In this document: one piece after another, positions 2,558 through 8,685 of the stretch | How the letters are laid out: each line of letters opens with the position of its first letter | Numbering within the stretch: the first letter of the stretch is position 1 | Virus record (IMG/VR): IMGVR_UViG_3300036827_000134 | Coordinates: 1-64,000 of that record | Direction: 5' to 3' (one strand) | DNA length: 64,000 nucleotides | Origin: a virus | The notes under the pieces: generated by a model | The model's database searches: none | What the model saw: the letters and a program-made list of their open reading frames with translations, nothing else | Told to the model about the DNA's origin: nothing | Made by a program: the position numbers and the translations under genes

Positions 2558-3571
2558 ATGTCACAGACCACCAGCGGAACATTTTCGGGCTCACCGTCGA
2601 TCATCACCCTGCTTAATGGGTCGATGCGCATTGCTCAGGTGATTGGTTCGGAGGAGACCGCCACTGGCGCGCAGCTGGCGAACGCCCTGGATGCCATGCG
2701 GGCCATGTGCAAAGGCTGGCAGGCCTCGGGTATCCACCTCTGGTGCGAGGAAGAGGGGATCCTGTTCGTTCAACCGGGTCAGACCCAGTACCAGATCGGC
2801 GCTGGTTCGCCTGACAAAGTAACCCTCTGGGATTCGCTGATCCAGACATCGCTGACCGCGAACGCGGCCGCGGCCGCGACAACGATCAGTATCGCGTCCC
2901 TGACCGGCGTCCTTTCCGATCTCAACACGATCGCCGCCGGCTATCAGATCGGCATTCAAATGGCCGATGGCACCAACTTCTGGACCACGGTCAGCGGTGC
3001 GCCATCTGGCCTGGTCGTCACACTGGCCGATGCACTGCCGTCGCCGGCGCTGAACGGCGCGCTGGTCTTTGCCTATGCGACGCCGCTTTATCGTCCGCTC
3101 CGGGTCATGGGTGGCCGGCGCTACAATCTCGCCTCGCGGATCGACATTCAGATCAATATGTGGGCACGCCTCGATTACGCGAACCAGAGCAACAAGTACG
3201 TCACCGGCATTCCGACGGCGTTCTTTTATGATCCGCAGACCGGCAACGGGGCTTACTCGCAGGTGCGCGGCATATGGAACAGCTGGCCGACGCCGCAGGA
3301 CAATACGAATGCCATGCGCTTCACGGCGCAGCGACCGATTCAGGATCTCGGCACGCTGGCCAACATCCCGGACTTTCCGGACGAATGGGACGCGGCGCTG
3401 AAGTGGAACCTGGCGCTCGAGATCGGCCCGGAGAACGGCACGCCGGCAGAGCAATTGCAGATCATCGTCAAGCAGGCCGAGCGCTGGTACTCCATGGCAA
3501 AGGAGTGGGACCGGGAAAGCGAGTCGATCCGGTTCGGCGTCGCTACCTCGCGCGGCCAGAGCAGGGGCTAG
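2558..3571 (+). CDS. P22 gp4-like head-tail connector protein
   Basis: 337 residues. The opening ('QVIGSEETATGAQLANALDAMRAM...GWQASGI') is typical of podovirus tail accessory factor gp4 / tubular adaptor proteins, which sit under the portal and seal the filled head. A central T/S-rich insertion (about 95-160) is followed by the conserved C-terminal part, with 'FPDEWDAALKWNLALEI' helices near the end. It directly precedes the gp10-like protein, the order expected from P22-type tails. Its TAG stop overlaps the stop of the convergent HNH gene. Confidence 0.75.
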   Translation: MSQTTSGTFSGSPSIITLLNGSMRIAQVIGSEETATGAQLANALDAMRAMCKGWQASGIHLWCEEEGILFVQPGQTQYQIGAGSPDKVTLWDSLIQTSLTANAAAAATTISIASLTGVLSDLNTIAAGYQIGIQMADGTNFWTTVSGAPSGLVVTLADALPSPALNGALVFAYATPLYRPLRVMGGRRYNLASRIDIQINMWARLDYANQSNKYVTGIPTAFFYDPQTGNGAYSQVRGIWNSWPTPQDNTNAMRFTAQRPIQDLGTLANIPDFPDEWDAALKWNLALEIGPENGTPAEQLQIIVKQAERWYSMAKEWDRESESIRFGVATSRGQSRG

Positions 3572-4131
3572 ATGGCCACACGGCGTCTCGTAATCGGGCC
3601 GCCCACGTGTTTCCATATGCGGCCGGAGCAAATAGCAGCGATATGGGAAACCTGGGCACAATGGTCTTTCGCGATTGTCTTGATCAGTTCGCCTTCCGCT
3701 CGTCGTACTCGCATACCCTGCACTTGGCTATTAGAGAACTTCGCCAGAGCATGATACTCACCCGAAATTACACGGCGCCCGAGCACCCGGAACGCATGTT
3801 CCTGGTTGGCCGAGCTTGTGAGGTACTCAAGATTACTGGCAGCGCAATCAAGCTTGCGACCATTCTTGTGGTTGACCTCATGGCCGCTCGGACAAGGGCC
3901 GATGAAGGCGCAGGCGACCAGGACGTGGACGGACCTATCAACTCGACGTCGATCAGGAAGGCTAAGGCCGACCTTCAGGTACTTTCCTCGAAGCGATGGT
4001 TTGAGGATTCTACCCACGCAGCGACGCCGGCCAGAAATATCACTGCCGACAATACGGACTTGCCCGTCGTTCGAGACCTCGTATCTTCCGTCCGTCTCGG
4101 TTATTGGAAGCCATACAAGGCGGTTGGACAT
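3568..4131 (-). CDS. NUMOD4/HNH homing endonuclease
   Basis: 187 residues from the ATG at 4131, which has an AGAGGG ribosome site; a longer reading to 4197 lacks support. The N-terminus 'VWLPITETDGRYEVSNDGQVR' matches the NUMOD4 DNA-binding motif. The HNH core is 'HVLVACAFIGPCPSGHEVNHKN' followed by 'NLEYLTSSANQEHA'. It lies on the opposite strand between the gp4-like and gp10-like genes, sharing the CTAG stop with the former. Free-standing phage HNH genes of this kind cut intron- or gene-less alleles and spread by repair. Role in the virus itself is probably none. Confidence 0.88.
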   Translation of the reverse strand: MSNRLVWLPITETDGRYEVSNDGQVRIVGSDISGRRRCVGRILKPSLRGKYLKVGLSLPDRRRVDRSVHVLVACAFIGPCPSGHEVNHKNGRKLDCAASNLEYLTSSANQEHAFRVLGRRVISGEYHALAKFSNSQVQGMRVRRAEGELIKTIAKDHCAQVSHIAAICSGRIWKHVGGPITRRRVAI

Positions 4132-4161
4132 GACCCTCTTTATCCTGCGTAGGACGTAGCG

Positions 4162-5376
4162 GTGCCCCAAGTGGCCTGGGCGTCTCAGGCATACCAAGCC
4201 CGCAGTCCGCAGCTTCTCTCCCAGCAGGCGATCAACTGCTTTACAGAGCCTACACCCAAAGAAGGTAAAACGACAACACCGCTCTACGGCATCCCAGGCC
4301 TCTCTCTGTTCTCACGCATGGGCAACGGTCCGATCATCGGGCTGCATGTGATGAACCAGACACTGTTCATCCTTTCTGGGCGGCAACTATGGTCGATTGA
4401 TTACGAGACGTTTCTTGAGACGGCGCCGTGGTCGCCCGTCGCCGCCACCTTCATCGGCACCACGACGCTCGGTGGCCTCGCCTCGATGGCCGACAACACG
4501 CAACAGCTGGTGATGGTCGACGGCAGCGCCGGTTGGGTCTACCAACCGGGTGGCCTCAACCAGGTAACGACCGCCACTGTCGCAGTCGGTGGAACGTCGA
4601 TCCCCGCCAACATCATTGGCGTGCTTGGCCCCGGCGACGCGCTCCTCGTGGAGATGGACGACGGATCGGTGTTCCATACAACGGTGGCATCGGTGACCGC
4701 GACCAGCATCGCGTTGACCGATGCGCTGCCCAGCCAATTAAGTGCCGGCGCCATCATCATCGACCCGACGAACGTGCTCGGTCAAATCACCGCGCCGGCC
4801 TTCAAAGCCGCCAACACAGTGCGGTACTTCGACGGTTACTTCGTCTTTAATGCCCGCAATACGCGGCAGTTTTTCATCTCAGGGATCAATGACGGCACGC
4901 AATATTCCGGCCTGGACTTCGCGACAGCTTCGGCCGGCAGCGATCTGCTTGTCTCTCTGGAAGTCTGGCACGAGCAATTGTTGCTGTTGTGCGAACGGCA
5001 CACCGAGGTCTGGTGGGACTCGGGCAACGCATCGTTTCCGTTCCAGCGTTACGATGCCGCGCTGATCGCCCGCGGTCTGCCATTGGGCGCGCCGTACTGT
5101 GTCTGCTCCGAGGATAACACGGTCTTCTGGATGGGCGACGATGGCATTTTTTATCGTCTCGACAACTATGCGCCGAAGCGCATCAGCACCTACGCGATGG
5201 AAACCGCCTGGGCACAATATCCGCTGCGCTTCACTGACGCGTCCTGTTTTGTGCTGGATCAGGAAGGGCATAAGTTCATCATCATCAACTTTCCCTCGGG
5301 CGACGGAACGTGGTGTTACGACATTTCCTCGGGGTTGTGGCATCAACGCGTGAGTTACGGCACGGCGTGGGTGTGA
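4162..5376 (+). CDS. P22 gp10-like stabilisation protein, N-terminal beta-propeller part (split gene)
   Basis: 404 residues from GTG 4162. The opening 'RSPQLLSQQAINCFTEPTPKEG' and 'LYGIPGLSLF' and later 'AANTVRYFDGYFVFNARNTRQFFIS' are the pattern of phage packaged-DNA stabilisation proteins (gp10 family), tail hub proteins that close the connector. Family members normally continue into a C-terminal beta domain. Here translation stops at TGA 5374-5376, followed by an in-frame TAA at 5383. The missing C-terminal domain appears in the next ORF (5386-6531), in the same reading frame but behind a SPRY-like module. The two products presumably assemble together. Confidence 0.75.
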   Translation: MPQVAWASQAYQARSPQLLSQQAINCFTEPTPKEGKTTTPLYGIPGLSLFSRMGNGPIIGLHVMNQTLFILSGRQLWSIDYETFLETAPWSPVAATFIGTTTLGGLASMADNTQQLVMVDGSAGWVYQPGGLNQVTTATVAVGGTSIPANIIGVLGPGDALLVEMDDGSVFHTTVASVTATSIALTDALPSQLSAGAIIIDPTNVLGQITAPAFKAANTVRYFDGYFVFNARNTRQFFISGINDGTQYSGLDFATASAGSDLLVSLEVWHEQLLLLCERHTEVWWDSGNASFPFQRYDAALIARGLPLGAPYCVCSEDNTVFWMGDDGIFYRLDNYAPKRISTYAMETAWAQYPLRFTDASCFVLDQEGHKFIIINFPSGDGTWCYDISSGLWHQRVSYGTAWV

Positions 5377-5385
5377 CGGCATTAA

Positions 5386-6531
5386 ATGGCGGATTATCAG
5401 GTCTATTTCAGACTCGACAACGGCTCATGGTTCGGTTCGGCGCCGGGAGCTGATCCGGTCGCCAACACGGGCGGTATGGACCTGTCCGCGATGGCCGGCA
5501 CGACGATGTATCCAGCGGTGCAAGGCACCGGCGATGCCGGCATTACCGTGAATTTCGGCGCGTCGGCGTTCTCTTTCCCGGTGCCGTCAGGATACGTGGC
5601 TGGCTGGCCGCACAGCGGCGGCGGCTTCACGACGCTCGATCCAAGCAAACTATTCGGAAGCGCTGCTCTGGGTAGCGGCAATTTGGTTGCCGGCTTTGCC
5701 ACCGTGCCAGGCCTGGCGCAGGCGGTCGACGGCTACACCACCGGCAAATACTATTTCGAGTTGGTCAATCCGACCGGCGACCTCTTCTCAGCCGATTGGG
5801 GCGGGGGTATTGGCCAGAACTTCGCGGTTGGCGGAAACCTCAACGAATGGTTTAGCAACGGCCGATTTAGTTCAAGCAACAATCTGGGAGGCGGCCTGAT
5901 CGGCGGCCAGAACCTTGCACACGAGCTGTCGTCGCTGGCCGCGCTTGGCTCGAATGTCTTGTCCGATGTCTTTAATTTCGCAACAAACGCCAATCACATC
6001 GTTGGTGTCGCGGTGTTCCTTACGAGCGCTCCGCCGCCGCCTCCGGCGCCCACGCCAGGCATCGTGGTGCCACCGAACCTCGGCCGCTGGCGAGGGCAGT
6101 GCGGCATCAACTGGAACGGGTTAGCCCTGGTCGGCGACGCATTTACCAATGTTGTCGGTTTGTCGAACTTCAATAGCTTCAACGAGTACGGCAACAAGAT
6201 TCATATGCTGGCGACCTCGCCGCCGCTGCATGAGGATCGCAAGCGCATCTTTGTCTCTCGATTTGAGGTAGAGGTTGAGGCCGGCGAAGGTACGCCAGAC
6301 CTGCCGCAGACCGCGCCGCTACTCGTGCTCGATTACTCGAAAGACGGCGGCATAACCTTTGCGCCGTTGCAGCAATTTCGCTCGATGGGAACCGCCGGCG
6401 AATACATCAAGCGATTGCGGTGGATTAACTTAGGCCAGTCGCGCACCTGGATTTTTCGGATCCGCTATTCCGATGCGGCGCGGCCAGCCATCATCGGCAC
6501 CTATTACGATTACTGGAAATCTTTAGGGTGA
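5386..6531 (+). CDS. SPRY-like domain fused to the C-terminal domain of a gp10-like stabilisation protein
   Basis: 381 residues. Residues about 50-212 look like a B30.2/SPRY domain: 'NFGASAFSFPVPSGY', then 'TTGKYYFEL', 'GGGIGQNF' and 'HIVGVAVFL'. A proline-rich linker (215-230) follows. Residues about 232-370 ('GRWRGQCGINWNGLALVGD', 'HEDRKRIFVSRFEVEVEAG', 'GEYIKRLRWINLG') match the C-terminal part usually found on full-length gp10-type proteins. The preceding ORF supplies the N-terminal propeller, in the same frame, separated by two stops. No good ribosome site precedes ATG 5386, so translation may be coupled. The domain assignment is from motif memory. Confidence 0.65.
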   Translation: MADYQVYFRLDNGSWFGSAPGADPVANTGGMDLSAMAGTTMYPAVQGTGDAGITVNFGASAFSFPVPSGYVAGWPHSGGGFTTLDPSKLFGSAALGSGNLVAGFATVPGLAQAVDGYTTGKYYFELVNPTGDLFSADWGGGIGQNFAVGGNLNEWFSNGRFSSSNNLGGGLIGGQNLAHELSSLAALGSNVLSDVFNFATNANHIVGVAVFLTSAPPPPPAPTPGIVVPPNLGRWRGQCGINWNGLALVGDAFTNVVGLSNFNSFNEYGNKIHMLATSPPLHEDRKRIFVSRFEVEVEAGEGTPDLPQTAPLLVLDYSKDGGITFAPLQQFRSMGTAGEYIKRLRWINLGQSRTWIFRIRYSDAARPAIIGTYYDYWKSLG

Positions 6532-7025
6532 TTGTCACCATCGAGCGCCTGAAGGAGGTTTTGCACTACGATCCTTCGTCGGGAGCCTTCAGATGGCGCG
6601 CGCGACGGCGGTTTTGTAGGTACGGGGCAGGAGACATCGCGGGCACAGACAACGGCAATTATTGGATCATCCGGATCGACGGCGAAGGCTACAAGGCGCA
6701 CCGCCTGGCGTGGTTCTACACATACGGAGCGTGGCCGAAACGCCTGGACCATCGCGATACCGATAAGCTGAATAATCGACTCGCTAATCTAAGGCTCGCA
6801 ACGAACGCTCAGAATGTCGCCAATGTCGGCTTGAGGGCGAACAGCACGACAGGCATCAAAGGGGTTCGTTACGTTCCAAAAGGCCGAAGGCGAAAATGGA
6901 ATGCCCAGATGACCGAGAAGGGAAAAACTCGCAATCTGGGATGGTTCTTCACCGCCGAAGAAGCGACCGTCGCTTATCGCGAAGCGGCGCAGCAGGCGTT
7001 CGGCGAGTTCGCGAGGTTCGAATGA
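6528..7025 (+). CDS. HNH/AP2 homing endonuclease
   Basis: 165 residues. The HNH core is 'KRLDHRDTDKLNNRLANLRL' (about 80-100). An AP2-type DNA-binding domain follows ('GIKGVRYVPKGRRRKW', 'NLGWFFTAEEATVAYREAAQ'), the usual architecture of phage AP2/HNH endonucleases. The start overlaps the stop of the split stabilisation gene and the stop overlaps the next start (ATGA), so the element has slotted in without breaking coupled translation. Confidence 0.9.
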   Translation: MIVTIERLKEVLHYDPSSGAFRWRARRRFCRYGAGDIAGTDNGNYWIIRIDGEGYKAHRLAWFYTYGAWPKRLDHRDTDKLNNRLANLRLATNAQNVANVGLRANSTTGIKGVRYVPKGRRRKWNAQMTEKGKTRNLGWFFTAEEATVAYREAAQQAFGEFARFE

Positions 7026-7456
7026 GCGGTACTGGCCAGTCGAACACACAGGCGCCGACGCGGCTCACGCCGATCGTCCTCGACCAACCAATCGTTGACG
7101 CGCGGACCGGGCAACCGACGCCGTATTTTGGCCAGATGATCCAGCGGATCCTGTCTTACCTCGGCCAACCGGCCACGTCGTCGTCCGGCGGCGGGGGTTC
7201 GGGCAGCGGCCTGACGATCACGGAACAAATCACCAACCTGAACACACAGGTCGAGGTGCTGCAGGCTCAGGCCGCCGGCAACACGCCGCAAAGCGGGACG
7301 ATCTCACGCCTGTCTTCGCTCGAGGTCGCGTTCCGGAATCTTCTGCGGTTCAACCGACCGCCGCCGTCGGCCGCGCTGCGCATCCTGGTACCGGCCGCAC
7401 CGCCACCGCCGCCGAACCTGACACCCGCCATGATACTTTCCTGGTGGAATCAATGA
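7022..7456 (+). CDS. Coiled-coil tail-associated protein
   Basis: 144 residues from ATG 7022 (ATGA overlap with the endonuclease). The N-terminus 'PIVLDQPIVDARTGQPTPYFGQMIQRIL' is common in short phage tail proteins. A Gly/Ser linker (about 58-68) and a heptad-like helix ('ITEQITNLNTQVEVLQAQAA') follow, ending in a proline-rich stretch. It overlaps the next gene by an ATGA. A structural role beside the fibres is inferred; no enzymatic motif is visible. Confidence 0.6.
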   Translation: MSGTGQSNTQAPTRLTPIVLDQPIVDARTGQPTPYFGQMIQRILSYLGQPATSSSGGGGSGSGLTITEQITNLNTQVEVLQAQAAGNTPQSGTISRLSSLEVAFRNLLRFNRPPPSAALRILVPAAPPPPPNLTPAMILSWWNQ

Positions 7457-8685
7457 TCCTCGACACCACAAGCAAGGTGCTCCGGATCGTCCTGGGCGAG
7501 AACCACACCACCAATCAATGCAAGTGCGTGTCATCGTGGACCGAAGGTGCCGCGCCCAATATCTTCAATCCCGGCAACACCAACATCCTGACCAACGACA
7601 CAACTCCCGTCATCGTTGTCGGTGCACCTTCGAAAGCCGGCCGTTACCGCGATGCCCGCGAGGTGCGCGTCAACAACAACGATACGGTGACGCACACCAT
7701 TACCTTGCAGATTTACGACGGCGCGACCGCGTGGCCGATCGCTCCATCGAATGTGTCTGTCCCGGCCGGCGGAGCGTTTGTCTACACGCCTGAGGCCAGC
7801 ATCACGGTCGTTCAAAGCGGCGGCACGACCGCAGGCATCACCGTGGTCGACGGCAATGGCACGACGATCAACGGTGTCACCAGCCTGACCTTGGCCGGTC
7901 CGACGGTGACCGGTTCGTCGCCAAACGCGACAGCGACACTGGTACCTCGAGGCTACATCGACGGCCTACAGATTACCGTTGCGAGTACCACCAGTTTTGC
8001 GGCTTCGGCGGGACAAGCGACATCGTCTGATGGCACGGCGGTGATGAACCTGGCCTCGGCAATCACCAAGCTGACCGGAGGCACATGGGTCGCCGGCAAC
8101 AATCAGAACGGACTCGATACCGGCACGATCGCCAATTCGACCACGTATCACGCCTATTTGATTTTCAATCCCAGCACGCTGGTCACCGACGTTCTATTTT
8201 CGACGAACGCGACGACGCCATCGCTGCCTTCCGGCTTTACGAAATTCCGGCGGATTTTCAGCTTCTACACGGGGGCATCCACTGCGCCGCTGGTCACGGT
8301 CATCCAGAACGGAGACCGGTTTGACCTGGGCACGCCGATTCAGGACACTTTGGGCACCCCCGGCGTCACCACAGCGTTGACCCAAACCCTGAGTGTCCCG
8401 ACCGGTATTGTCGTGGAGGCAATTCTCAGTGGGTTTTTGTTGGATGCCACCGGCAGCAATACGGCGCTTTATCTGTCATCGCTGGCGCAGACCAACGTGG
8501 CGGCGGGCGCCGGTTTGGCAATGACAACGGAGCAAGGCGCGGCAGCGGCTACAGGGCTTGGTACCTATTCAGGATTTCGAGTTATAACGGATACAGCGGC
8601 TGGGATCAGAAGGCGTGTCAGCACCACCACCGCACAAATACTTATCGTCACCAACGGCTGGATCGACCGACGCGGCAAGCAGTGA
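7453..8685 (+). CDS. Putative tail / receptor-binding structural protein
   Basis: 410 residues from ATG 7453 (ATGA overlap). The N-terminal 110 residues form a beta-rich unit ('REVRVNNNDTVTHTITLQIYDG', then 'VPAGGAFVYTPEASITVV'). The remainder is T/S/A-rich with repeated strand-turn patterns and ends in 'LIVTNGWIDRRGKQ'. There are no catalytic or membrane signals. Its place among tail genes suggests a fibre or baseplate-like component. Confidence 0.6.
   Translation: MILDTTSKVLRIVLGENHTTNQCKCVSSWTEGAAPNIFNPGNTNILTNDTTPVIVVGAPSKAGRYRDAREVRVNNNDTVTHTITLQIYDGATAWPIAPSNVSVPAGGAFVYTPEASITVVQSGGTTAGITVVDGNGTTINGVTSLTLAGPTVTGSSPNATATLVPRGYIDGLQITVASTTSFAASAGQATSSDGTAVMNLASAITKLTGGTWVAGNNQNGLDTGTIANSTTYHAYLIFNPSTLVTDVLFSTNATTPSLPSGFTKFRRIFSFYTGASTAPLVTVIQNGDRFDLGTPIQDTLGTPGVTTALTQTLSVPTGIVVEAILSGFLLDATGSNTALYLSSLAQTNVAAGAGLAMTTEQGAAAATGLGTYSGFRVITDTAAGIRRRVSTTTAQILIVTNGWIDRRGKQ

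Follow-up and report, generated by a model that had tools for sequence, protein, structure and literature searches.

The locus at positions 4162-6531 of the window (the whole stretch analysed, 64,000 nucleotides, positions 1 to 64,000 of the IMG/VR virus record IMGVR_UViG_3300036827_000134) raises the question of whether a tail hub of the P22 gp10 type can be made as two polypeptides. Such hubs belong to the conserved core of the short-tail injection machine, and the solved structures compared here are all single chains. In the window, ORF1 (4162-5376, + strand, 404 aa; hereafter gp10N) comprises the N-terminal part and most of a P22 gp10-type beta-propeller and ends in WHQRVSYGTAWV before its stop, whereas ORF2 (5386-6531, + strand, 381 aa; hereafter gp10C) consists of a module, a Pro-rich linker recognised by its sequence (6022-6078, +) and the gp10 C-terminal domain (6079-6528, +). 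The joint (5368-5388, +) reads TGG GTG TGA for the final gp10N codons, with the TGA at 5374-5376, followed by a 9-bp gap (cgg cat TAA) and the gp10C ATG at 5386; both ORFs lie in frame 1. Coordinates, shared frame and the TGA/TAA joint were thus as an earlier note on this DNA had described them.

The two chains divided a single profile between them. ORF1 matched phrog_578 (head closure Hc3, P22 gp10-like) over profile positions 5-328 (E 1e-68) and residues 233-374 of ORF2 matched positions 330-467 (E 1.5e-22) of the 486 in the profile; the two parts thus follow each other directly in it, and the ~230 extra residues that separate the gp10 halves lie within ORF2. The match of the ORF2 region to PF11134 was weak (348-452), and this model scored under the cut-off on its own. 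Isolate phages, for example Vibrio phage 1.211.A, encode these two stretches without interruption in a single gene. No further phrog_578 or gp10C match was obtained in the whole IMG/VR record of 64,021 bases, and a full gp10-like gene elsewhere is thus absent from this record.

A joined structure model was obtained by reading the stops as residues (789 aa, 45-row alignment). The pLDDT was ~95 in gp10N, mostly 75-95 in gp10C and <50 in the module. The model displayed the fold of the solved gp10 members, propeller and C-terminal domain, with Z scores of 38.7 for Pan3 (9vyg), 37.4 for P22 gp10 (8eap; rmsd 2.2, 440/471 residues aligned), 34.4 for Sf6 and 34.0 for Pam1; together with the profile match, this bears out the earlier assignment of the end of ORF2 as the gp10 C-terminal domain. 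Unrelated, ordinary propellers aligned to model residues 42-671, gp10C residues 641-671 included, so the initial gp10C strands belong to the propeller; according to the model, gp10C contributes the strands that close it. The fit of gp10N with gp10C into a single complete gp10 is seen in the model only, which was folded as one chain, a setting that favours association; the halves, the break, the separate genes, selection and exchange are read from sequence. The joint corresponds, by sequence, to the loop after Trp-Cys at residues ~331-336 of P22 gp10, and at the break this loop would face outward. Assembly from two chains is strongly implied, and gp10N and gp10C would co-assemble, probably in six copies each, to give the hexameric ring that P22 gp10-like hubs form between adaptor and needle.

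Relatives were gathered by searches with ORF1, ORF2 and the alignments A1 and A2. The same gp10 break was found in 16 distinct lineages, represented by many independent contigs, with all split members being uncultured contigs. In 15 of these lineages gp10N terminates in WHxRxSxGxxWV and a stop, the exception being L017, where gp10N continues into the module and stops just before gp10C. The gp10C part was present in 15/16 lineages (the L027 contig ends before it) and its core was strongly conserved. These data bear on the possibility that gp10N alone is the hub and gp10C an adhesin or decoration protein with a gp10-like docking domain. We regard this as improbable: gp10C is indeed movable, duplicable and found fused to fibre-like and FN3 modules, as such a protein might be, but gp10N would then be a hub lacking both the strands that close the propeller and the C-terminal part, which every solved relative has, and gp10C would hardly be expected in nearly every split lineage with so conserved a core.

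Gene arrangement varied considerably among the relatives. The gp10N stop codon was TGA, TAG or TAA, and the gp10C start lay at offsets 0, 1 and 2, that is, in all three frames; the gap from gp10N stop to gp10C start was -1 to 16 nt in most of them and 125 or 469 nt in L108 and L020. In one lineage (five contigs, L021-L025) gp10C is located upstream, followed by an adaptor-like gene and then by gp10N, so neither readthrough nor frameshifting can join the chains there. In G001 two gp10C copies are located 3-8 kb downstream of gp10N, one of them on a chain of 956-964 aa in which a Gly-rich part and FN3 are inserted within gp10C. In the window the shared frame, the two nearby stops and the strongly conserved gp10N end would suit a single protein made through stop-codon readthrough or frameshifting, the split being merely apparent; however, the variation in gene order, stop kinds and frames among relatives excludes these as a general joining route, and no intron or other structured RNA was detected at the joint (no Rfam match with E up to 1 in 3000-7600), which makes this explanation very unlikely. 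The conserved TGGGTGTGA at the joint (GGTG-TGA) can pair with the 16S tail as an anti-Shine-Dalgarno match of ~-7 kcal/mol and may act as the ribosome binding site of gp10C, although this pairing is suggestive only.

A tree built from 41 proteins and 460 columns placed all split lineages, a group of soil-type phages, together on the same side of a branch supported at 100/100, and a single change of state suffices to explain this placement on one branch. The branch neighbours of the split clade, L123 (a prophage of Bradyrhizobium sp. dw_78) and L059, are intact single chains, and in these and in more distant relatives the two parts lie 4-8 residues apart in most cases. The sister prophage points to Bradyrhizobium or its kin as possible hosts of the split clade. 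Values of dN/dS were 0.06-0.17 for gp10N and gp10C alike, thus reflecting purifying selection on both. A decayed gene or an assembly error, in which ORF1 would represent a truncated gp10, with ORF2 as a fragment, could account for a stop within a normally single-chain protein, but is extremely improbable given the same break in 16 lineages and many independent contigs of one clade with both parts under purifying selection. Because it is common to all these lineages and both halves are under such selection, the break is not due to chance, and the sequence data indicate that the split is old and clade-wide, and no local accident. In the solved structures compared gp10 is one polypeptide, whereas here it is encoded by two genes, in reversed order in L021-L025; we have hence classed it as a split variant and not as an ordinary gp10. 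All these factors taken together make it highly probable that the tail hub of this clade is made as two polypeptides, gp10C carrying a variable N-terminal module, which agrees with the two-chain gp10-like hub that the earlier note had proposed.

The earlier note had also placed a SPRY-like module at the break; such a module is present, but its halves are in reversed order. Part 1 (5386-5607, +; aa 1-74) resembles the C-terminal half of SPRY domains (blastp to L009, L015, L010, L027 and L006, and alignments A6 and A7), and part 2 (5626-6021, +; aa 81-212) resembles the N-terminal half (L027 aa 31-119, and alignments A6 and A7), aa 81-170 matching the N-half of L027. The match to the C-half thus precedes that to the N-half, and the whole module is in permuted order, unlike the SPRY domains of L027, L009 and L015, which are canonical. 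The window module aligned straight over the junction of tandem SPRYs in L006 and L027 (27-33%). The junction of a tandem duplication is a classic route to circular permutation, and the module (5386-6051) is likely to be a natural circular permutation, apparently derived from tandem SPRYs; the reversed order was seen only in the lineages of the window, L013 and L023. As regards the Pfam SPRY domain (PF00622), each half of the module can be aligned with its counterpart in canonical phage SPRYs, whereas the Pfam model gave no match with E up to 1 to the module or its pieces. With regard to the concanavalin-like sandwich fold of SPRY domains, the module alone, modelled in AF2 with half-domain rows, reached a low pLDDT (47.6), and Foldseek returned no match with E < 1. 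A binding site for sugars or receptors was not recognised in the module, which may nevertheless be exposed and lectin-like, as the earlier note had suggested.

The N-terminal modules of gp10C differed strongly among lineages. Besides the SPRY-like module (window, L013 and L023), we found a repeat-rich module (L014), a module that appears sandwich-like by eye (L016, L018, L019 and L028) and a short-repeat module (L020 and L026), among others, and Gly-rich sequence represents another kind of module at the joint; four gp10C chains (L018, L019, L023 and G001) had FN3 matches above the Pfam cut-off. DNA identity between the window and its nearest relative, L013, was 73.8% in gp10N and 80.7% in gp10C as opposed to 97.7% in the module, and the stretch of high identity extended from 5368, in the final gp10N codons, to 6116, in the initial dozen codons of the gp10C domain. 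The opposite pattern was obtained between L019 and L028, with flanks mostly at 90-100% and the module at 61-85%. The joint thus bounds a module that moves or diverges independently of the hub, and the identity pattern indicates a recent exchange of the module between the window's lineage and L013. The stop/start joint would free such exchange from the need to stay in frame at the 5' boundary, and recombination could use the conserved gp10N and gp10C ends as homology.

Two HNH genes flank the locus. A NUMOD4 + HNH gene (3568-4197, - strand) lies antisense between the adaptor-position gene and gp10N, overlapping the gp10N start, and has a counterpart only in L041 (46%, same place). The other (6528-7025, +) overlaps the gp10C stop with its start; no counterpart was found at that place in the relatives tested, and its sole match among relatives was divergent and lay antisense, upstream of gp10N in L103. 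An HNH-driven origin of the split was considered and rejected, there being no consistent HNH neighbour in the relatives; the HNH gene as cause, from which the earlier note had suggested a recombination or insertion event, was thus not supported, since the occurrence of HNH genes does not follow that of the split and the split is clade-wide.

Regarding function, the module would be presented on the hub, where it could contact the host surface; we consider such display, with moderate confidence, to be its likeliest purpose. More tentatively, the split hub might work as a socket in which a constant gp10N takes any gp10C, modules being swapped, or mixed where two gp10C genes occur (G001); this is possible rather than probable and, if true, would place a host-range cassette inside the core of the injection machine and not in a separate fibre. 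A propeller completed in trans, with the break as the site of module exchange, would constitute a natural two-part display system, by means of which it can be tested whether podovirus hubs as such participate in adsorption. Both genes are easily labelled 'truncated' or 'hypothetical' in annotation. The open-access literature searched yielded no account of a gp10 hub in two pieces or of a two-chain hub with exchangeable modules, which, given the incomplete coverage, is weak evidence of novelty; extra domains on hub proteins are already known.

The nearest known systems, P22 gp10 and Sf6 gp8 (PDB 8eap, 8u10, 7sg7) and the hubs of the cyanophages Pam1 and Pan3 (7eeq, 9vyg), are homologous over the full length of gp10N plus gp10C and share the fold of the joined model, but they are single chains of ~440-470 aa, in contrast with two genes of which the second (the first in L017) carries an exchangeable module. 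In the nozzle protein gp17 of SU10 (PDB 7z47), nozzle domains are placed between the blades, and the edge of blade 1 bears a fibre-dock loop (PMC9509320), to which the split site may correspond. It is likewise a propeller hub with extra domains, closed by a C-terminal strand at the dock loop, but it is a single chain, with a Z score of 23.5 only, and a short tail fibre, which is a separate protein, binds to its dock loop. Among the relatives, two SPRYs are inserted in one chain at a second loop, within the C-terminal domain, in L006/L008, and insertions occur at other loops in L138 and L141. These parallels, with SU10, indicate that extra domains on hub proteins are not in themselves new. In L089, of another lineage, a gp10-type hub is independently split at that loop, and three genes separate its halves (3363-5015 and 7788-8246).

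Some further observations were made around these genes. A small extra beta domain within gp10N (4570-4776, +; aa ~137-205) is missing in intact relatives, which skip model positions ~134-205. This domain of ~65 aa recurs in the adaptor-position gene upstream (2558-3571; profile E ~1e-4 to 3e-10 in relatives) and apparently also in the ORF at 52-588 of the window, and some relatives have it twice in gp10N. A Gly-rich ORF of the fibre-tip type (1526-2548, +) resembles in style the N-terminus of the 964 aa chain that carries gp10C in G001. The gp10C genes of G001 correspond to L105 8906-11797 and L037 865-1944, one of them being fused to a Gly-rich fibre-like part and 'EPLSEP' repeats. In Acetobacter phage phiAX1 (L039, LC644973.1), the gene annotated as 'phage stabilisation protein' (3686-3877, 63 aa) bears no resemblance to gp10, whereas the actual gp10 is annotated as a 'hypothetical protein' (BCZ75906.1, 7593-9032).
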